Below, piece by piece: positions 46,852 through 52,474 of a DNA stretch of 64,000 bases. This DNA is from an uncultured Acidobacteriota bacterium (GTDB taxonomy: Bacteria > Acidobacteriota > Terriglobia > Terriglobales > Acidobacteriaceae), in contig CAINND010000092.1 in NCBI GenBank assembly GCA_903851035.1, positions 1 to 64,000 on the forward strand. The letters run 5' to 3'. The notes below the pieces were generated by a model. That model made no database searches. It was not told the origin of the DNA and saw nothing but the letters and a program-made list of their open reading frames with translations. Positions within the stretch are counted from its first letter, which is position 1; every line of letters starts with the position of its first letter. Position numbers and translations under genes: made by a program.

Positions 46852-47928
46852 ATGTTTGACCGCCTCGATCAGATTGAAGCCCGCTACGCAGAGCTGAACG
46901 CGCAGCTCTCCAGCCCGGAGATCGTCAACGACTCCGCCAACTACCAGAAGACGGCCAAGGCGCAGGGCGAGCTGACGCCCATCGTCGAAAAATATCAGGA
47001 GTACAAGAAGCTGAAGAAGGGCATTGTGGACAGCCGGGCCATGATGGCTGCCGAGACCGATCCCGAGATGGTGGCCATGGCCACCGAGGAACTGCAGGAA
47101 CTGGAGGCGCGGCTTACGGTGGTGGAAGAAGAGATGAAGCTGTTGCTGCTGCCCAAGGATCCCAACGACGAGAAGAACGTCATCCTGGAAATCCGCGCCG
47201 GAACCGGAGGCGACGAGGCCACGCTGTTTGCCGCCGAAATCTTCCGCATGTACACGCGCTTTGCGGAGACGCACCGCTGGAAGGTGGAAGTGCTGTCCAG
47301 CTCAGACAGCTCGGTGGGCGGACTGAAGGAAGTCATCGCCATCATCGAAGGCAAGGGCGTGTACTCGCAGATGAAATATGAGAGCGGCGTGCATCGCGTG
47401 CAGCGCGTGCCAGACACGGAGACCCAGGGGCGCGTGCACACCTCCGCCGTAACGGTGGCCGTGCTGCCGGAGGCCGAAGACGTGGACGTGAAAATTGAGG
47501 CCAAGGACATTCGCATTGACACCTTCTGCTCCAGTGGCCCCGGCGGACAGTCGGTGAACACCACGTATTCGGCGGTGCGCATCACCCACCTGCCCACGAT
47601 GACCGTGGTGAGCTGCCAGGATGAAAAGTCACAGATTAAGAACCGCGAAAAAGGCATGCGCGTGTTGCGCTCCCGCCTGTATGAGCTGGAGCAGGCCAAG
47701 CAGCAGGAGGCGCTGGCCAAAGAGCGCCGCTCGCAGGTGGGCACGGGTGACCGCAGCGAAAAGATCCGCACCTACAACTTCCCGCAGAACCGCGTGACGG
47801 ACCATCGCATCGGACTAACGGTGCACCAGCTCGACCAGGTGATGGAAGGCAAGCTGCAACCCTTTGTGGATGGATTGGTCAGCCACTTCCAGGCGGAGAA
47901 GCTGAAGGCGGAGATGACGAACGCGTAA
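46852..47928 (+). CDS. prfA: Peptide chain release factor 1
   Basis: A 358-aa class I release factor for UAA/UAG. The codon-recognition tripeptide is in [19 protein letters not shown] (PDT, the PxT motif of RF1 rather than RF2's SPF). The catalytic GGQ is in [23 protein letters not shown]. Its methylase gene prmC, often adjacent, lies 3.6 kb downstream here. Confidence 0.96.
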
Positions 47929-47975: not shown

Positions 47976-48001
47976 ACAAAGAAATCACTGTAAAACGGGT
48001 G

Positions 48002-48034
48002 CCCCATTCAAGCCTTCTTTTGGCTTGAGTGGGG
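48002..48034 (+). repeat. Left REP hairpin of the RAYT unit
   Basis: CCCCATTCAAGCC (48002-48014) pairs with GGCTTGAGTGGGG (48022-48034), one G-U pair, with a 7-nt loop. The right copy (48615-48647) is its inverted repeat; identity extends to about 40 bases including the flanking TAGTT. Confidence 0.85.
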
Positions 48035-48089
48035 TAGTTGAATTTGTCTTCTCTTGCACCGTTTTCCACTCTACGGTACTCTTCCGCCC

Positions 48090-48641
48090 ATGCCGTGGAG
48101 CTTGGAGCGCTTTCACGAATCCGGACAGACACACTTCCTCACATTCTCCTGCTATTGCCGACGCCCACTGCTTGCGCAACTCGGCGCGCCGCAGGTTTTT
48201 GAGAAAGCTCTGGAGCGTGTGCGGCGAAAGTTTGCCCTCAGCGTTTTTGGATATGTGGTGATGCCGGAGCACGTTCACCTGCTGTTGAGCGAGCCGGAGG
48301 GAGCGCCGCTGGCAGATGCCGTGAAGAGTCTTAAGCAGGGCGTCGCCCGCCGCATGATCGGAGAGGAAGAACACTTCTGGCAACAGCGCTACTACGACTT
48401 CAACGTACGGAATCGCAGCCAGTTCGAGGAGAAGTTGCGCTATCTTCATCGCAACCCAGTGAGCCGCGGCCTATGTGCGCATCCGGAGGATTGGCCCTGG
48501 AGCAGTTTCCGTCATTACGCCACGGGAAGCGAGTGCGCGGTGGAAATCGAATCCGAGTGGACGGCGCGGGCAAGGGAGCGGCAGGCCGGGCGTCTTGTTC
48601 CAGCGGTTGAACTACCCCACTCAAGCCAAAAGAAGGCTTGA
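48090..48641 (+). CDS. REP-associated tyrosine transposase (RAYT, Y1/HUH family)
   Basis: A 183-aa single-domain HUH nuclease of the Transposase_17/RAYT family. It shows HFLTFSCYCRRPLL at the start, YVVMPEHVHLLLSEP with the HUH pair His61-x-His63, and FWQQRYYDFNVRN with the nucleophile candidates Tyr101/Tyr102, then LRYLHRNPVSRGLC and DWPWSSFRHYATG. RAYTs cut single-stranded REP hairpins and are domesticated relatives of IS200 transposases. It is bracketed by inverted REPs; the last eight codons (PHSSQKKA plus TGA) lie inside the right REP. ATG 48090 was chosen by homology (MPWSLERFHESGQ); no ribosome site is evident. Confidence 0.92.
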   Translation: MPWSLERFHESGQTHFLTFSCYCRRPLLAQLGAPQVFEKALERVRRKFALSVFGYVVMPEHVHLLLSEPEGAPLADAVKSLKQGVARRMIGEEEHFWQQRYYDFNVRNRSQFEEKLRYLHRNPVSRGLCAHPEDWPWSSFRHYATGSECAVEIESEWTARARERQAGRLVPAVELPHSSQKKA

Positions 48642-48647
48642 ATGGGG
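48615..48647 (-). repeat. Right REP hairpin, overlapping the 3' end of the RAYT gene
   Basis: CCCCACTCAAGCC (48615-48627) pairs with GGCTTGAATGGGG (48635-48647), with a 7-nt loop. It is the inverted copy of 48002-48034 and contains the RAYT stop codon at 48639-48641. Confidence 0.85.
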
Positions 48648-48749
48648 TACACGCAGGTGTGCTGGCGGACGATGCATGCGGCGAAATAAGCTGGCGGGGA
48701 ATAAAGGCATTTTTCGCGTATAGCCTCGGAGCCGGAAGCCAATGGTTGC

Positions 48750-48873: not shown

Positions 48874-50100
48874 ATGCCGCTCACCGCAAACGAATCCGTG
48901 GCGCAGAAGTGGGAGAACTCTCCGCATCCGGAGATTTCCGTTGTCATGCCCTGCCTGAATGAGGCGGAGACGCTTGGCCTATGCATCGAGCAGGCAGCCC
49001 GTGCTCTACGGGAGAATGGCATCGTCGGCGAGATTGTCATCGCCGATAACGGCAGCACCGATGGCTCCTGTGAGATTGCCGAAAAGCTGGGCGCAAGGGT
49101 GGTTCATGTTTCCAGCAGGGGTTACGGCAGCGCGCTGCGCGGTGGCTTCATGGCAGCCCGCGGTCATTACCTGATCATGGGCGACGCCGACAGCAGTTAC
49201 GACTTCAGCCAGATTCCGCGCTTTCTGGAAAAGCTCCATGAAGGCTGGGACGTGGTTATGGGCAACCGCTTCCAGGGCGGCATTCAGCCTGGCGCCATGC
49301 CGCTGTTGCACCGTTATCTTGGCAACCCGGTGCTTACCGGCGTGGGAAGGCTCTTCTTTCACAGTCCCAGCGGCGATTTTCACTGCGGGCTGCGCGCTCT
49401 CAGCCGTGAGGCATTCCTGAGGATGGATTTGCGCAGCACCGGCATGGAGTTTGCCAGCGAGATGGTGGTGCGGGCCACCTTGTTGAAAATGCGGATCGCC
49501 GAGGTTCCAGCCAGCCTCGCTCCGGATGGCCGAAGCCGTCCGCCACACTTGCGCACCTGGCGGGATGGCTGGCGGCATCTGCGCTTCTTGCTGCTCTACA
49601 GTCCGCGCTGGCTCTTTCTCTATCCTGGGATTGCCGCGATGGCCGTGGGACTGGCTGTTATGCTCTGGTTGCTGCCGCACTCACGCATGGTGGGACGCGT
49701 GGTTTTTGACATTCATACCCTGACCTTTGCTTCCATGCTGGTGCTGGCCGGCTTTCAGTCGATCGCCTTTGCGCTGTTTGCCAAAATTCTCGGCATTACC
49801 CAGGGACTGTTGCCCCCGGATCCACGCCTGGATCGCATCTCCCGCAAATTGAATATGGAGGCTGGCCTGCTTATCGGCGTGCTTCTAATTCTTGGGGGAG
49901 CATGCGGCTCGCTCTTTGCGCTCACCCACTGGTACTCCATGAGCTTTGGCCAGCTTGATCCCGCACATGTGGAGCGAATCGTCATACCCTCCATCTGCGC
50001 GCTGATTCTCGGCCTTGAGGTTATCCTCGCCAGTTTCTTCCTTAGCCTGCTGAGCCTAACTTGCCGGGAAAATTTAAACACCGGGGCGCCAAAGGCGTGA
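48874..50100 (+). CDS. GT2 glycosyltransferase (dolichyl-phosphate-mannose-synthase-like) with TM domain
   Basis: A 408-aa protein. The GT-A fold has ISVVMPCLNEAETLGLCIEQA, IVIADNGSTDGSCEIAEKLG, the metal/nucleotide-sugar motif MGDADSSYDFSQIP, GNRFQGGIQPGAMPLLHRYLGN and DFHCGLRALSREAF. Four C-terminal TM segments follow. Such enzymes load a sugar onto a polyprenyl phosphate. CTAAGG lies upstream of the ATG. The stop overlaps or abuts the start of a GT-C-like gene, suggesting donor-maker plus transferase. Confidence 0.85.
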   Translation: MPLTANESVAQKWENSPHPEISVVMPCLNEAETLGLCIEQAARALRENGIVGEIVIADNGSTDGSCEIAEKLGARVVHVSSRGYGSALRGGFMAARGHYLIMGDADSSYDFSQIPRFLEKLHEGWDVVMGNRFQGGIQPGAMPLLHRYLGNPVLTGVGRLFFHSPSGDFHCGLRALSREAFLRMDLRSTGMEFASEMVVRATLLKMRIAEVPASLAPDGRSRPPHLRTWRDGWRHLRFLLLYSPRWLFLYPGIAAMAVGLAVMLWLLPHSRMVGRVVFDIHTLTFASMLVLAGFQSIAFALFAKILGITQGLLPPDPRLDRISRKLNMEAGLLIGVLLILGGACGSLFALTHWYSMSFGQLDPAHVERIVIPSICALILGLEVILASFFLSLLSLTCRENLNTGAPKA

Positions 50101-50102
50101 CG

Positions 50103-51548
50103 ATGCGCACTCGCCCGGCATGGAAGATTCTGGCTGCATTTCTTCACCGTGCGGCTTTCTTGCCGGGCGCCGTACTGCTTGCCTGGCCTGCCATCTACAA
50201 CCGCTATCCTCTTCTGTTTCCGGATTCGATCAGCTATATCAACAGTGGAGCGCCGGTTGCACGCGCACTCTTCCTTCGCCAGCCATCAGACTATTATGGG
50301 ATGCGCTCGCTCCTCTACGCCCTGGGTATTGCGCCCTTTCATCCGGGCGGGAACCTTTGGCCGGTAATTGCCCTGCAGGCGGTTCTCATTGCATACGTCC
50401 TCTGGTTTGTGGTGCAGTCCTTTGCGCCGGGCCGTACCGCAGTTGTTTACTACGCCATCGTCATTCCCCTTGCACTGTTCACCGGGCTGGGATGGGTGGC
50501 GAGCATTGTGATGCCGGACGCTCTCGGCGCCTTGCTTTACCTGGTCATCTACCTGCTGGTCTTTGGATGGAAAAGCGGCGTTTGGGAAAGCGGCTCACGC
50601 TGGCAGCGGCTTGTTCTTATGGTGATCGCCTGGTGGGGAGCAACGGCGCATATTACCCACATCATGCTGGGCGCGGGACTGTGTCTATTTCTGCTGGCAG
50701 CGCTGCTTGTGACTCGCTCGGCGACCAAACAGCGGCTGCGCGGACTGGCTGTTTCGGCGGGCATCATTGTGGCCGCGATTTTGGCACACATGGCCGTGCA
50801 TGGCGTTCTTTATGGCAAACCTACGCTCAACGGCGAACGTCCAGCTTACCTCTCTGCCAGGCTGCTGGCCGACGGCACCGGCAGACAGTACTTGCGTGAA
50901 TACTGCCCGCAGGCAGGGCTTGCACTGTGCGACTATGTGCAGCATCTTCCCGAAAGCCCCGACGGCTTCCTTTGGGATGACGATGGGATATGGCAGACAG
51001 CCTCGCCGGAAAAGCAGGCGCTGATTTTGCGGCAGGAGACAGCATTTGCCCGCGGCGTCATACGCGCTTATCCCCGGCAGCAATTGGCAATTTCGGGCGC
51101 AGCATTTTGGAATCAGCTCCACAATTTCGACATCAACAACACTCCCAGCCCCTGGCTCTCCGAGGCCGTGGCGGCCTCCCTGCCCAGTCAGACGTACGCC
51201 TACGAACATAGCCGCCAAGCAGAGGGCACGCTGCCCAACGAGTTGCTCTCGACGATCCAGAATTGGACGGTTGGCTCCGCACTGGCACTGGCGGTGATTC
51301 TGGTGCCGTTTATCTGGAGGCGGCGCGCCGTAAGAATCGTTGGCTTGGCCGCCGTGGTTTTTCCCATCCTCGTGGCCAATGCGTTGATAACGGGCGTCCT
51401 CGCCGAGGTCGATGATCGCTATCAGGATCGCGTGATCTGGCTGCTGCCGTTCTTTGCCGGGATGGTAGTTGTTGAATTCATCAATCAGCGGAGATTCGCC
51501 CGGACGGCCACTAGCCTGCCGGCGCAGCTATCCGAAATCCAGCGATAA
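50103..51548 (+). CDS. Polytopic membrane protein, possibly a GT-C-type glycosyltransferase
   Basis: A 481-aa protein with about ten hydrophobic segments. After the first TM, the exposed loop contains YNRYPLLFPDSISYINSGAP, whose acidic residue after TM1 resembles the catalytic-loop position of GT-C enzymes. A large hydrophilic loop (about residues 250-390) with GIWQTASPEKQALILRQE follows, and a Trp/Arg-rich C-terminus. The start is ATG 50103, or GTG 50097 overlapping the upstream TGA. No family match is certain; the GT-C idea rests on topology, this loop and the GT2 neighbour. Confidence 0.5.
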   Translation: MRTRPAWKILAAFLHRAAFLPGAVLLAWPAIYNRYPLLFPDSISYINSGAPVARALFLRQPSDYYGMRSLLYALGIAPFHPGGNLWPVIALQAVLIAYVLWFVVQSFAPGRTAVVYYAIVIPLALFTGLGWVASIVMPDALGALLYLVIYLLVFGWKSGVWESGSRWQRLVLMVIAWWGATAHITHIMLGAGLCLFLLAALLVTRSATKQRLRGLAVSAGIIVAAILAHMAVHGVLYGKPTLNGERPAYLSARLLADGTGRQYLREYCPQAGLALCDYVQHLPESPDGFLWDDDGIWQTASPEKQALILRQETAFARGVIRAYPRQQLAISGAAFWNQLHNFDINNTPSPWLSEAVAASLPSQTYAYEHSRQAEGTLPNELLSTIQNWTVGSALALAVILVPFIWRRRAVRIVGLAAVVFPILVANALITGVLAEVDDRYQDRVIWLLPFFAGMVVVEFINQRRFARTATSLPAQLSEIQR

Positions 51549-51571: not shown

Positions 51572-52474
51572 GTGCAACTAAGGCAGGCATTACACGATGG
51601 GCTGGCCCGGCTGGAGGCCGCTCGGCTGGTTGGCGTGGACATTGACGCCGTGCGCCTCAGCGCCGAAGTGCTGCTCTTTCATGTGGCGCACTGCGACCGC
51701 GCCCATCTCTACGCGCATCCCGAGCGCGAACTGACGACGGATGAGCACCAGCAGTACGAGGCGCTCATCGCGCGCCGAGCCGCGGGCGAGCCTCTGCAAT
51801 ACATCACAGGGCATCAGGAGTTCTGGCGGATGGACTTCTGCGTCACTCCGGCCGTTCTGATTCCGCGCCCGGAAACCGAGCACCTTGTCGAGCAGACCTT
51901 GGTGCTGGCCCGCAAGTTTCATCCAGAGGCATTTGCAGATGGCGCGCGAGGGAAAAAATTGCAGGGAGACGCTCTGCGGCTGATTGATGTCGGCACCGGC
52001 TCGGGAGCCATCGCCGTCGCGCTGGCCTGTGAACTGCCCGGGGCCGAGGTGGCCGCCGTGGACCTGTCTCCTGAGGCACTAGACGTGGCCCGCCAGAACG
52101 CCCAGCGGCTGGGAGCCAGGGTGCAGTTCACGGTCAGCGATGTGCTGGAGGCCGTGCCCGAAGAGCCTACCTTCGACTTTGTGGTCAGCAACCCTCCCTA
52201 CGTCGGGCTGGACGAGGCGGACAAGGTGCAACAGGTGGTTCTGCAGAATGAGCCGCACCTAGCGCTCTTTGCCGGGGCGGAGGGGTTGGCCGTGATCCGA
52301 CGGCTGATTCCGCAGTCTCATGCGCGGCTGAAGCCCGGCGGCTGGCTGCTGATGGAGATTGGCTGGTCGCAGTCTGAGGCGGTGAAGGCGCTACTTGTGG
52401 GATGGCATAACATCCACGTCATCAACGACTTGGCCGGAGTTCCGCGCATCGTTGCCGCGCGAAAAACGTTGTAA
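51572..52474 (+). CDS. prmC: Peptide chain release factor N5-glutamine methyltransferase
   Basis: A 300-aa SAM methyltransferase that methylates the GGQ glutamine of release factors. The N-terminal helical domain has LSAEVLLFHVAHCDRAHLYA and GEPLQYITGHQEFW, then VLIPRPETEHLVEQ. The SAM site is IDVGTGSGAIAVALA, the catalytic motif NPPYV is in DFVVSNPPYVGL, and GGWLLMEIGW closes the fold. I prefer GTG 51572 because TACAAT lies 7 nt upstream; TTG 51551, 2 nt after the previous stop, is possible. Its target gene prfA lies 3.6 kb upstream. Confidence 0.93.
   Translation: MQLRQALHDGLARLEAARLVGVDIDAVRLSAEVLLFHVAHCDRAHLYAHPERELTTDEHQQYEALIARRAAGEPLQYITGHQEFWRMDFCVTPAVLIPRPETEHLVEQTLVLARKFHPEAFADGARGKKLQGDALRLIDVGTGSGAIAVALACELPGAEVAAVDLSPEALDVARQNAQRLGARVQFTVSDVLEAVPEEPTFDFVVSNPPYVGLDEADKVQQVVLQNEPHLALFAGAEGLAVIRRLIPQSHARLKPGGWLLMEIGWSQSEAVKALLVGWHNIHVINDLAGVPRIVAARKTL

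Follow-up and report, generated by a model that had tools for sequence, protein, structure and literature searches.

A REP-bracketed RAYT transposase gene in an acidobacterial genome and signs that units of its family move as wholes

We analyzed a stretch of 64,000 nucleotides from an uncultured soil member of the Acidobacteriaceae (hereafter, the window). On its plus strand, positions 48090-48641 hold a gene that encodes, from its ATG, a RAYT transposase of 183 amino acids, with an in-frame TTG upstream at 48054. The gene lies between two 33-bp REPs in inverted orientation, the left at 48002-48034 (plus strand) and the right at 48615-48647 (minus strand). An earlier note on this DNA had described a complete RAYT gene between two such hairpins, and its coordinates hold to the base. 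Each hairpin of this type, REP-A, is built of 13-bp stems and a 7-nt loop and keeps one mismatch position, seen as T.G on one strand and as A.C on the opposite strand. Beyond the REPs themselves, inverted complementarity continues over 47 nt in all (94%), and the folding of all four REP single strands outdoes that of 200 of 200 shuffles. On the left, the outer foot CGGGTG (47996-48001, plus strand) is intact and is shared by most of the dispersed copies listed, and the inner foot reads TAGTTG (48035-48040, plus strand). The right outer foot (48648-48653, plus strand) reads TACACG and is degenerate relative to CACCCG. With respect to the canonical 5' foot tetranucleotide GT[AG]G, the left foot reads GGTGC before CCC; GGTGG is found in some REP copies of the same genome and in several relatives.

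The identity of the protein is supported by profile, alignment and model. It matches the NCBIfam RAYT model NF047646 (E 7.9e-32; 110 bits against a cut-off of 80) and Pfam Y1_Tnp (E 6.2e-10), while the NCBIfam model transpos_IS200 gives 29 bits, under its cut-off of 55. An AlphaFold model built from 33 aligned relatives (pLDDT 84.5) has as its best PDB match 4er8, the structure of a RAYT in complex with a REP hairpin (E 2.5e-11), to which the sequence also aligns (E 1.2e-14). These alignments uphold the HUH motif proposed in the earlier note, His61 and His63, encoded as H61-V62-H63 at 48270-48278 (plus strand). They do not uphold Tyr101/Tyr102 as the catalytic residues, whose counterparts in E. 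coli TnpAREP are Phe/Trp and which are ruled out as the nucleophile. Instead, Y118 (codon 48441-48443, plus strand; motif YLHRNP), invariant in the 33 sequences, aligns with Y115 of the E. coli enzyme, which we take to be its catalytic residue. Y118 sits in a Y---NP motif, given as the signature of this RAYT class in the available text of PMC6006769, and is the likely catalytic tyrosine of the window protein. The protein thus has the core of a Y1 transposase, including both the HUH and the Y---NP motif, and the Y---Q motif of IS200/IS605 is absent.

To the left of the unit is prfA, encoding peptide chain release factor 1 (46852-47928, plus strand; Pfam PCRF and RF-1), and to its right, outside the unit, is a gene for a family 2 glycosyltransferase (48874-50100, plus strand; open reading frame list and Pfam). 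The unit had been placed between prfA and prmC, yet prmC (51572-52465, plus strand; tblastn extent) is not the next gene, since the glycosyltransferase and a membrane-protein gene intervene. Among 29 prfA loci of relatives, prmC starts at most 140 nt from prfA in 20, including those of three genomes of the window's own genus (G001, G002, G003); another gene lies between the two in G016 (636 nt), one locus has them 1321 nt apart, and the remaining seven lack a prmC within reach. The gap in the window contains an insertion of about 3.6 kb that holds the RAYT unit, the glycosyltransferase and the membrane protein. In G002, the glycosyltransferase and membrane-protein pair (window 48874-51548) sits together on contig C219, away from prfA, which argues that a segment larger than the RAYT unit was inserted between prfA and prmC, and the unit's own insertion is not isolable because the gap holds those two genes as well. 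The search for empty prfA-prmC sites proposed in the earlier note thus returned relatives that lack the unit here (the 20 closed loci of 29) but no clean empty site. In a separate observation, prmC of G001 (L126; G001:C47:1-9000), an essential gene, carries in mid-protein an in-frame, stop-free insert of several REP-like hairpins.

REP-A is plentiful elsewhere in the genome (assembly of 3.26 Mb in 121 contigs). The genome-wide stem count that the earlier note had suggested gave 20 exact sites and 32 sites with at most 3 mismatches, both including the unit's two, and a reversed-pattern control gave none in either case. We therefore reject the reading that this REP is unique, while its reported absence from the rest of the 64 kb is borne out: the window's contig (C92) has only the unit's two sites. 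The note had also held that a REP with no other copy, in a unit present at this locus in all relatives, would point to a fixed gene; neither was found. A looser pattern based on shared feet (GGGTGSCCYA ... TGGGGTAGTT) has 48 sites genome-wide, one of them on C92, against none for the control, and these fall into several stem families. Contig C37 carries a second intact RAYT gene, enclosed by two inverted REPs of another family; the frame of this gene crosses the right REP and stops just past the stem (L012; G000:C37:72059-72738). Of the third RAYT only a remnant is present, which contains a REP-A and has two further REP families beside it (L013, L061; G000:C94:21889-25176). Contig C24 has four copies of REP-A, all pointing the same way and spaced about 2.1-2.7 kb apart, with other REP families between them (G000:C24:4569-11517). 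RAYTs whose end is REP-A group in a single clade (12 rows; SH-aLRT 98).

The right REP of the window unit also encodes the end of the protein. It enters the frame at codon 176 and supplies the last eight codons (48615-48638) and the TGA (48639-48641), as the earlier note had read from the sequence: CCC CAC TCA AGC CAA AAG AAG GCT TGA, or PHSSQKKA and stop (48615-48641, plus strand), an end also seen in the open reading frame list and the tail comparison. To see how general this is, we collected the uninterrupted RAYT frames of the fetched loci, 102 in all and 96 after identical ends were merged, of which 75 are bracketed by an inverted REP pair and 21 have no such pair detected. Of these 75, 35 have their stop within the downstream REP, 13 past its stem and 27 ahead of the REP, and this last class includes a few pairings with a distant REP (for example, L200); translation thus runs into the downstream REP in 48 of 75. 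The REP type and the reading frame vary between RAYT clades. A conserved tryptophan is recognizable in 66 of the 75, and its distance from the REP varies little (quartiles 49 and 67 nt; n = 66). In the 55 that passed a distance filter, 28 stops fall inside the REP, against 17.3 expected when the linker is shuffled and 6.5 when the frame is randomized too. We reject pure chance on the basis of this excess, with shared ancestry as a caveat: the tree shows at least 11 changes, and the rows are related and not phylogenetically independent. The enrichment suggests a preference for a stop inside the REP and, because the rows share ancestry, is a hint of such a preference and not proof.

Within the window's own clade we compared 22 REP-A tails, after 10 of 32 rows were set aside as other REPs. 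In 20 of these, translation enters the REP in the same frame, across linkers of 46, 52, 55 or 58 nt; L216 and, in L151, the first of its two REPs depart from this. For 14 REP-A RAYTs (two of which, L146 and L148, have no normal N-terminus), dN/dS is 1.06 in the REP-coded codons, 0.30 in the linker and 0.20 in the core. The linker, codons 159-174 in the window gene (48564-48611, plus strand), overlaps in part the final helix of the model (156-168). Synonymous change (pS) is 0.28 in the REP-coded codons, compared with 0.68-0.70 in the rest of the gene, and change is near-equal at all three codon positions in the REP-coded part. A conserved peptide is rejected by the dN/dS of 1.06, and together with the low synonymous change this value means that the tail is conserved as DNA. 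Residues 169-183 of the window RAYT have a pLDDT below 50, and the REP-coded tail is accordingly modeled as disordered. On these comparisons, the REP-encoded protein end looks like a passenger, not a special device, and the peptide has no function that could be detected. Additional REPs occur within the genes of this clade: 6 of the 14 carry one or two extra in-frame copies, placed after the HUH motif, before an EHFW motif or in the linker. In L140 (L140:1294-1380), a 24-nt stretch of the gene (CCTGCTGAGCGAACCACAACAGGA) is directly duplicated on the two sides of a REP-A within the RAYT gene, a feature not expected of single-strand HUH transposition; L145 has a similar and less exact duplication.

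We next asked whether entire units occur in more than one place. A survey of 101 RAYT loci in 30 related genomes, 22 of which have at least 2 loci, was searched for pairs with at least 80% identity over at least 300 bp of RAYT-unit sequence and unrelated flanks; tandem-repeat matches inside one G035 locus were dropped. Such pairs are present in 9 of the 30 genomes (9 of the 22), at identities of 98.1% (G001), 88.7% (G003), 95.4% (G004), 87.8% (G008), 84.1% (G009), 98.2% (G016, where one contig holds both copies), 98.7% (G018), 92.7% (G028) and 92.8% (G033). In six of the nine (G001, G003, G004, G008, G016, G033), an end of the alignment coincides with the outer foot (GGTGGCCC/GGGTGCCC) or falls no more than about 10 nt from it. 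In the other three no end sits at the foot: the alignment overruns it by about 24 nt (G018) or ends in the gene on one side (G009, G028). Most genomes with unit copies are metagenome assemblies, and contig ends are involved in both G001 and G018 pairs and in one copy each in G004 and G016. In G018, a third contig end (G018:C28:1-125) is identical to the start of the unit, which suggests that this genome may hold more than two copies. Named records from Acidobacteriaceae and other Terriglobia, mostly metagenome-assembled and of which the best 80 of 140 were used, add pairs in SRVP_7 (92.7% over 657 bp), palsa_352 (85.9%) and Acidicapsa dinghuensis (83.4%), and all three have both ends at the outer feet. 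No pair was found in the other 13 of the 22 genomes, nor in the window genome, whose three RAYT loci include a single full copy of the unit studied here.

Shortened and damaged forms accompany the full units. In G003, of the window's genus, a pair of 376 and 381 bp (94.5%) lacks the middle of the gene and has REP-A at both ends, and a stretch on contig C16 of Acidicapsa matches both unit ends with the middle absent. Among damaged copies, the right REP of L138 has an extra base and the stop is lost, and L014, among the best matches listed, has an internal TAG. Clean empty sites were not seen when the SRVP_7 unit with its flanks was compared with 12 genomes or the Acidicapsa unit with its flanks with 15, each of which matched the unit or one flank only. 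In two cases with orthologous surroundings, the unit is more alike than its flank (96.1% versus 81.9% for L193/L198; 96.6% versus 92.3% for L208/L210), which hints at conversion or transfer.

Several known systems resemble the window unit. The REPtrons of E. coli, Stenotrophomonas and Pseudomonas combine a RAYT/TnpAREP having HUH and Y---NP motifs with inverted and dispersed cognate REPs, as does the window, and the REP-bound E. coli RAYT is the top structural match of the window protein. Inverted REPs around RAYTs are already known (PMC2817692, in the parts available), and RAYTs are described, in the accessible portions of PMC2817692 and PMC6006769, as having no similar copies or internally deleted forms. 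In contrast, the Acidobacteriaceae units occur as two similar copies with different flanks and in internally deleted forms; the window unit differs further in that its right REP lies within the reading frame, and it may differ at its foot, which reads GTGC against the canonical GT[AG]G. The HUH/Y1 fold and a minimal element with hairpins at its ends are shared with the IS200/IS605 elements IS608 and ISDra2, but those have a Y---Q motif, while the window unit has Y---NP and inverted-REP ends. The single-copy habit of RAYTs holds in the window genome; the multiple similar copies typical of IS200/IS605 are absent there, and paired copies are present in 9 of the 30 relatives. Acidobacterial tyrosine transposases with terminal inverted repeats, some of them repeated, have been described as TIRYT/TIRtrons (Di Nocera et al. 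2013, PMC3733652). In the text available from that paper, repeats that overlap the gene are labeled 3'ov in the key to a figure, GTAG REPs are said often to give flanking ORFs a TAG stop, so that REP-supplied stops are in print, and movement of whole TIRtron units is not among the reported results. Most of those terminal repeats carry GGGGWSAS, whereas the window repeat lacks it on both strands. Finally, the part of PMC6006769 available calls REP insertions within tnpAREP genes a unique trait of subclass 2.4, which abounds in Cyanobacteria and Bacteroidetes; here, in-gene, in-frame REPs are present in an acidobacterial clade (6 of 14 REP-A RAYTs).

Based on these data, we propose, with a probability of roughly two in three, that the window contains a REP-ended transposable unit (REPtron) of the RAYT/TnpAREP family. 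In such a unit, a single HUH/Y1 transposase gene would have on either side, in inverted orientation, the hairpin that is most likely its recognition target. The second RAYT of the genome, with its own inverted pair of another REP, and the grouping of REP-A-ended RAYTs in a single clade support this cognate pairing. By analogy with the family, the enzyme would bind the single-stranded REP at each end and cut near the REP foot through Y118, with H61 and H63 holding the metal; both the cutting and the choice of strand would be the work of the RAYT. Whole units, internally deleted versions and solo REPs could all be moved by this enzyme. The gene extends into the REP, where the TGA ends the reading frame within the element. 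Because the REP is the element's end, it would be kept as DNA, and a TGA inside the element would make the protein end independent of the landing site. The likeliest rationale for the stop is thus that the REP, kept anyway as an end, also closes the gene inside the element. The earlier note had suggested that the unit, with target sites at both ends, could be mobile. That idea gains from family members in different flanks, and judged by their sequences the Acidobacteriaceae units do show signs of moving as wholes; the mobility of the window copy is unproven, because it is single, its right outer foot is degenerate and there is no clean empty site. With TACACG in place of CACCCG, this copy may be stranded. 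Our wider proposal, on which we are evenly divided, is that Acidobacteriaceae carry self-mobile RAYT elements of about 650 bp with REP ends and a stop codon inside an end, that deleted forms were moved in trans, that such elements were ancestors of domesticated RAYTs and of solo REPs and REPINs, and that decay of the right foot stranded the window copy.

The textbook view is that of a domesticated REPtron: the RAYT serves as a fixed gene of its host, copying REPs in trans, and the unit itself is immobile. The window genome alone would fit this, with one full copy, about 30 further REP-A sites and a degenerate right foot, and the view may hold for the window copy itself. As a general account we consider it unlikely, given that 9 of the 30 related genomes have copies of a unit in different flanks and that in 20 of 29 loci prfA and prmC are adjacent and the unit is missing. 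Alternatively, the spread of units could be due to homologous recombination, or to gene conversion, between REPs at different sites, with a unit overwriting a solo REP, in which case homology would also end at REPs. REPs are indeed abundant and near-identical, and the units of L193/L198 and L208/L210 are more alike than their flanks. Yet the shared arms are only about 35-50 bp, and a REP-cutting enzyme explains units, deletion derivatives, solo REPs and in-gene REP insertions as one pattern; we infer that the transposase made the unit copies and regard recombination as rather improbable.

A different proposal concerns the REP-encoded C-terminus, which could have a function of its own in the protein or the mRNA, such as an autoregulatory hairpin at the stop or a binding peptide. 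Despite varied linker length, 20 of 22 tails enter REP-A in the same frame, stops fall in the REP in 28 of 55 units against 17.3 or 6.5 expected, and E. coli TnpAREP is reported to be more active once 13 C-terminal residues are removed, suggesting a regulatory role (PMC8266576, in the portion available). Against this, the REP-coded codons have a dN/dS of 1.06 and flat codon positions, the tail is modeled as disordered, and other clades stop before (27 of 75) or after (13 of 75) their REP. The stop enrichment comes from rows that are not phylogenetically independent and is also compatible with selection for a frame that closes within the element. We hold a working C-terminus to be very improbable.

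RAYTs are described as domesticated genes that copy short REPs and not themselves, and a self-moving RAYT ancestor is only inferred (PMC3116915, PMC8049555 and PMC6006769, in the sections available). We found no report of self-moving RAYT units in the open-licence literature searched, including the accessible text of PMC3686654. Bracketing REPs, the 3' overlap and REP stops are already known, and the new point is the acidobacterial unit copies in new flanks. In a family that has whole REP-RAYT units in new surroundings, the step from transposon to domesticated gene would become directly testable, and the compact units of Acidobacteriaceae would be suited to learning what a RAYT needs for moving DNA. 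In the REP-coded protein end, one stretch of DNA serves both as the terminus of an element and as the stop of its gene.
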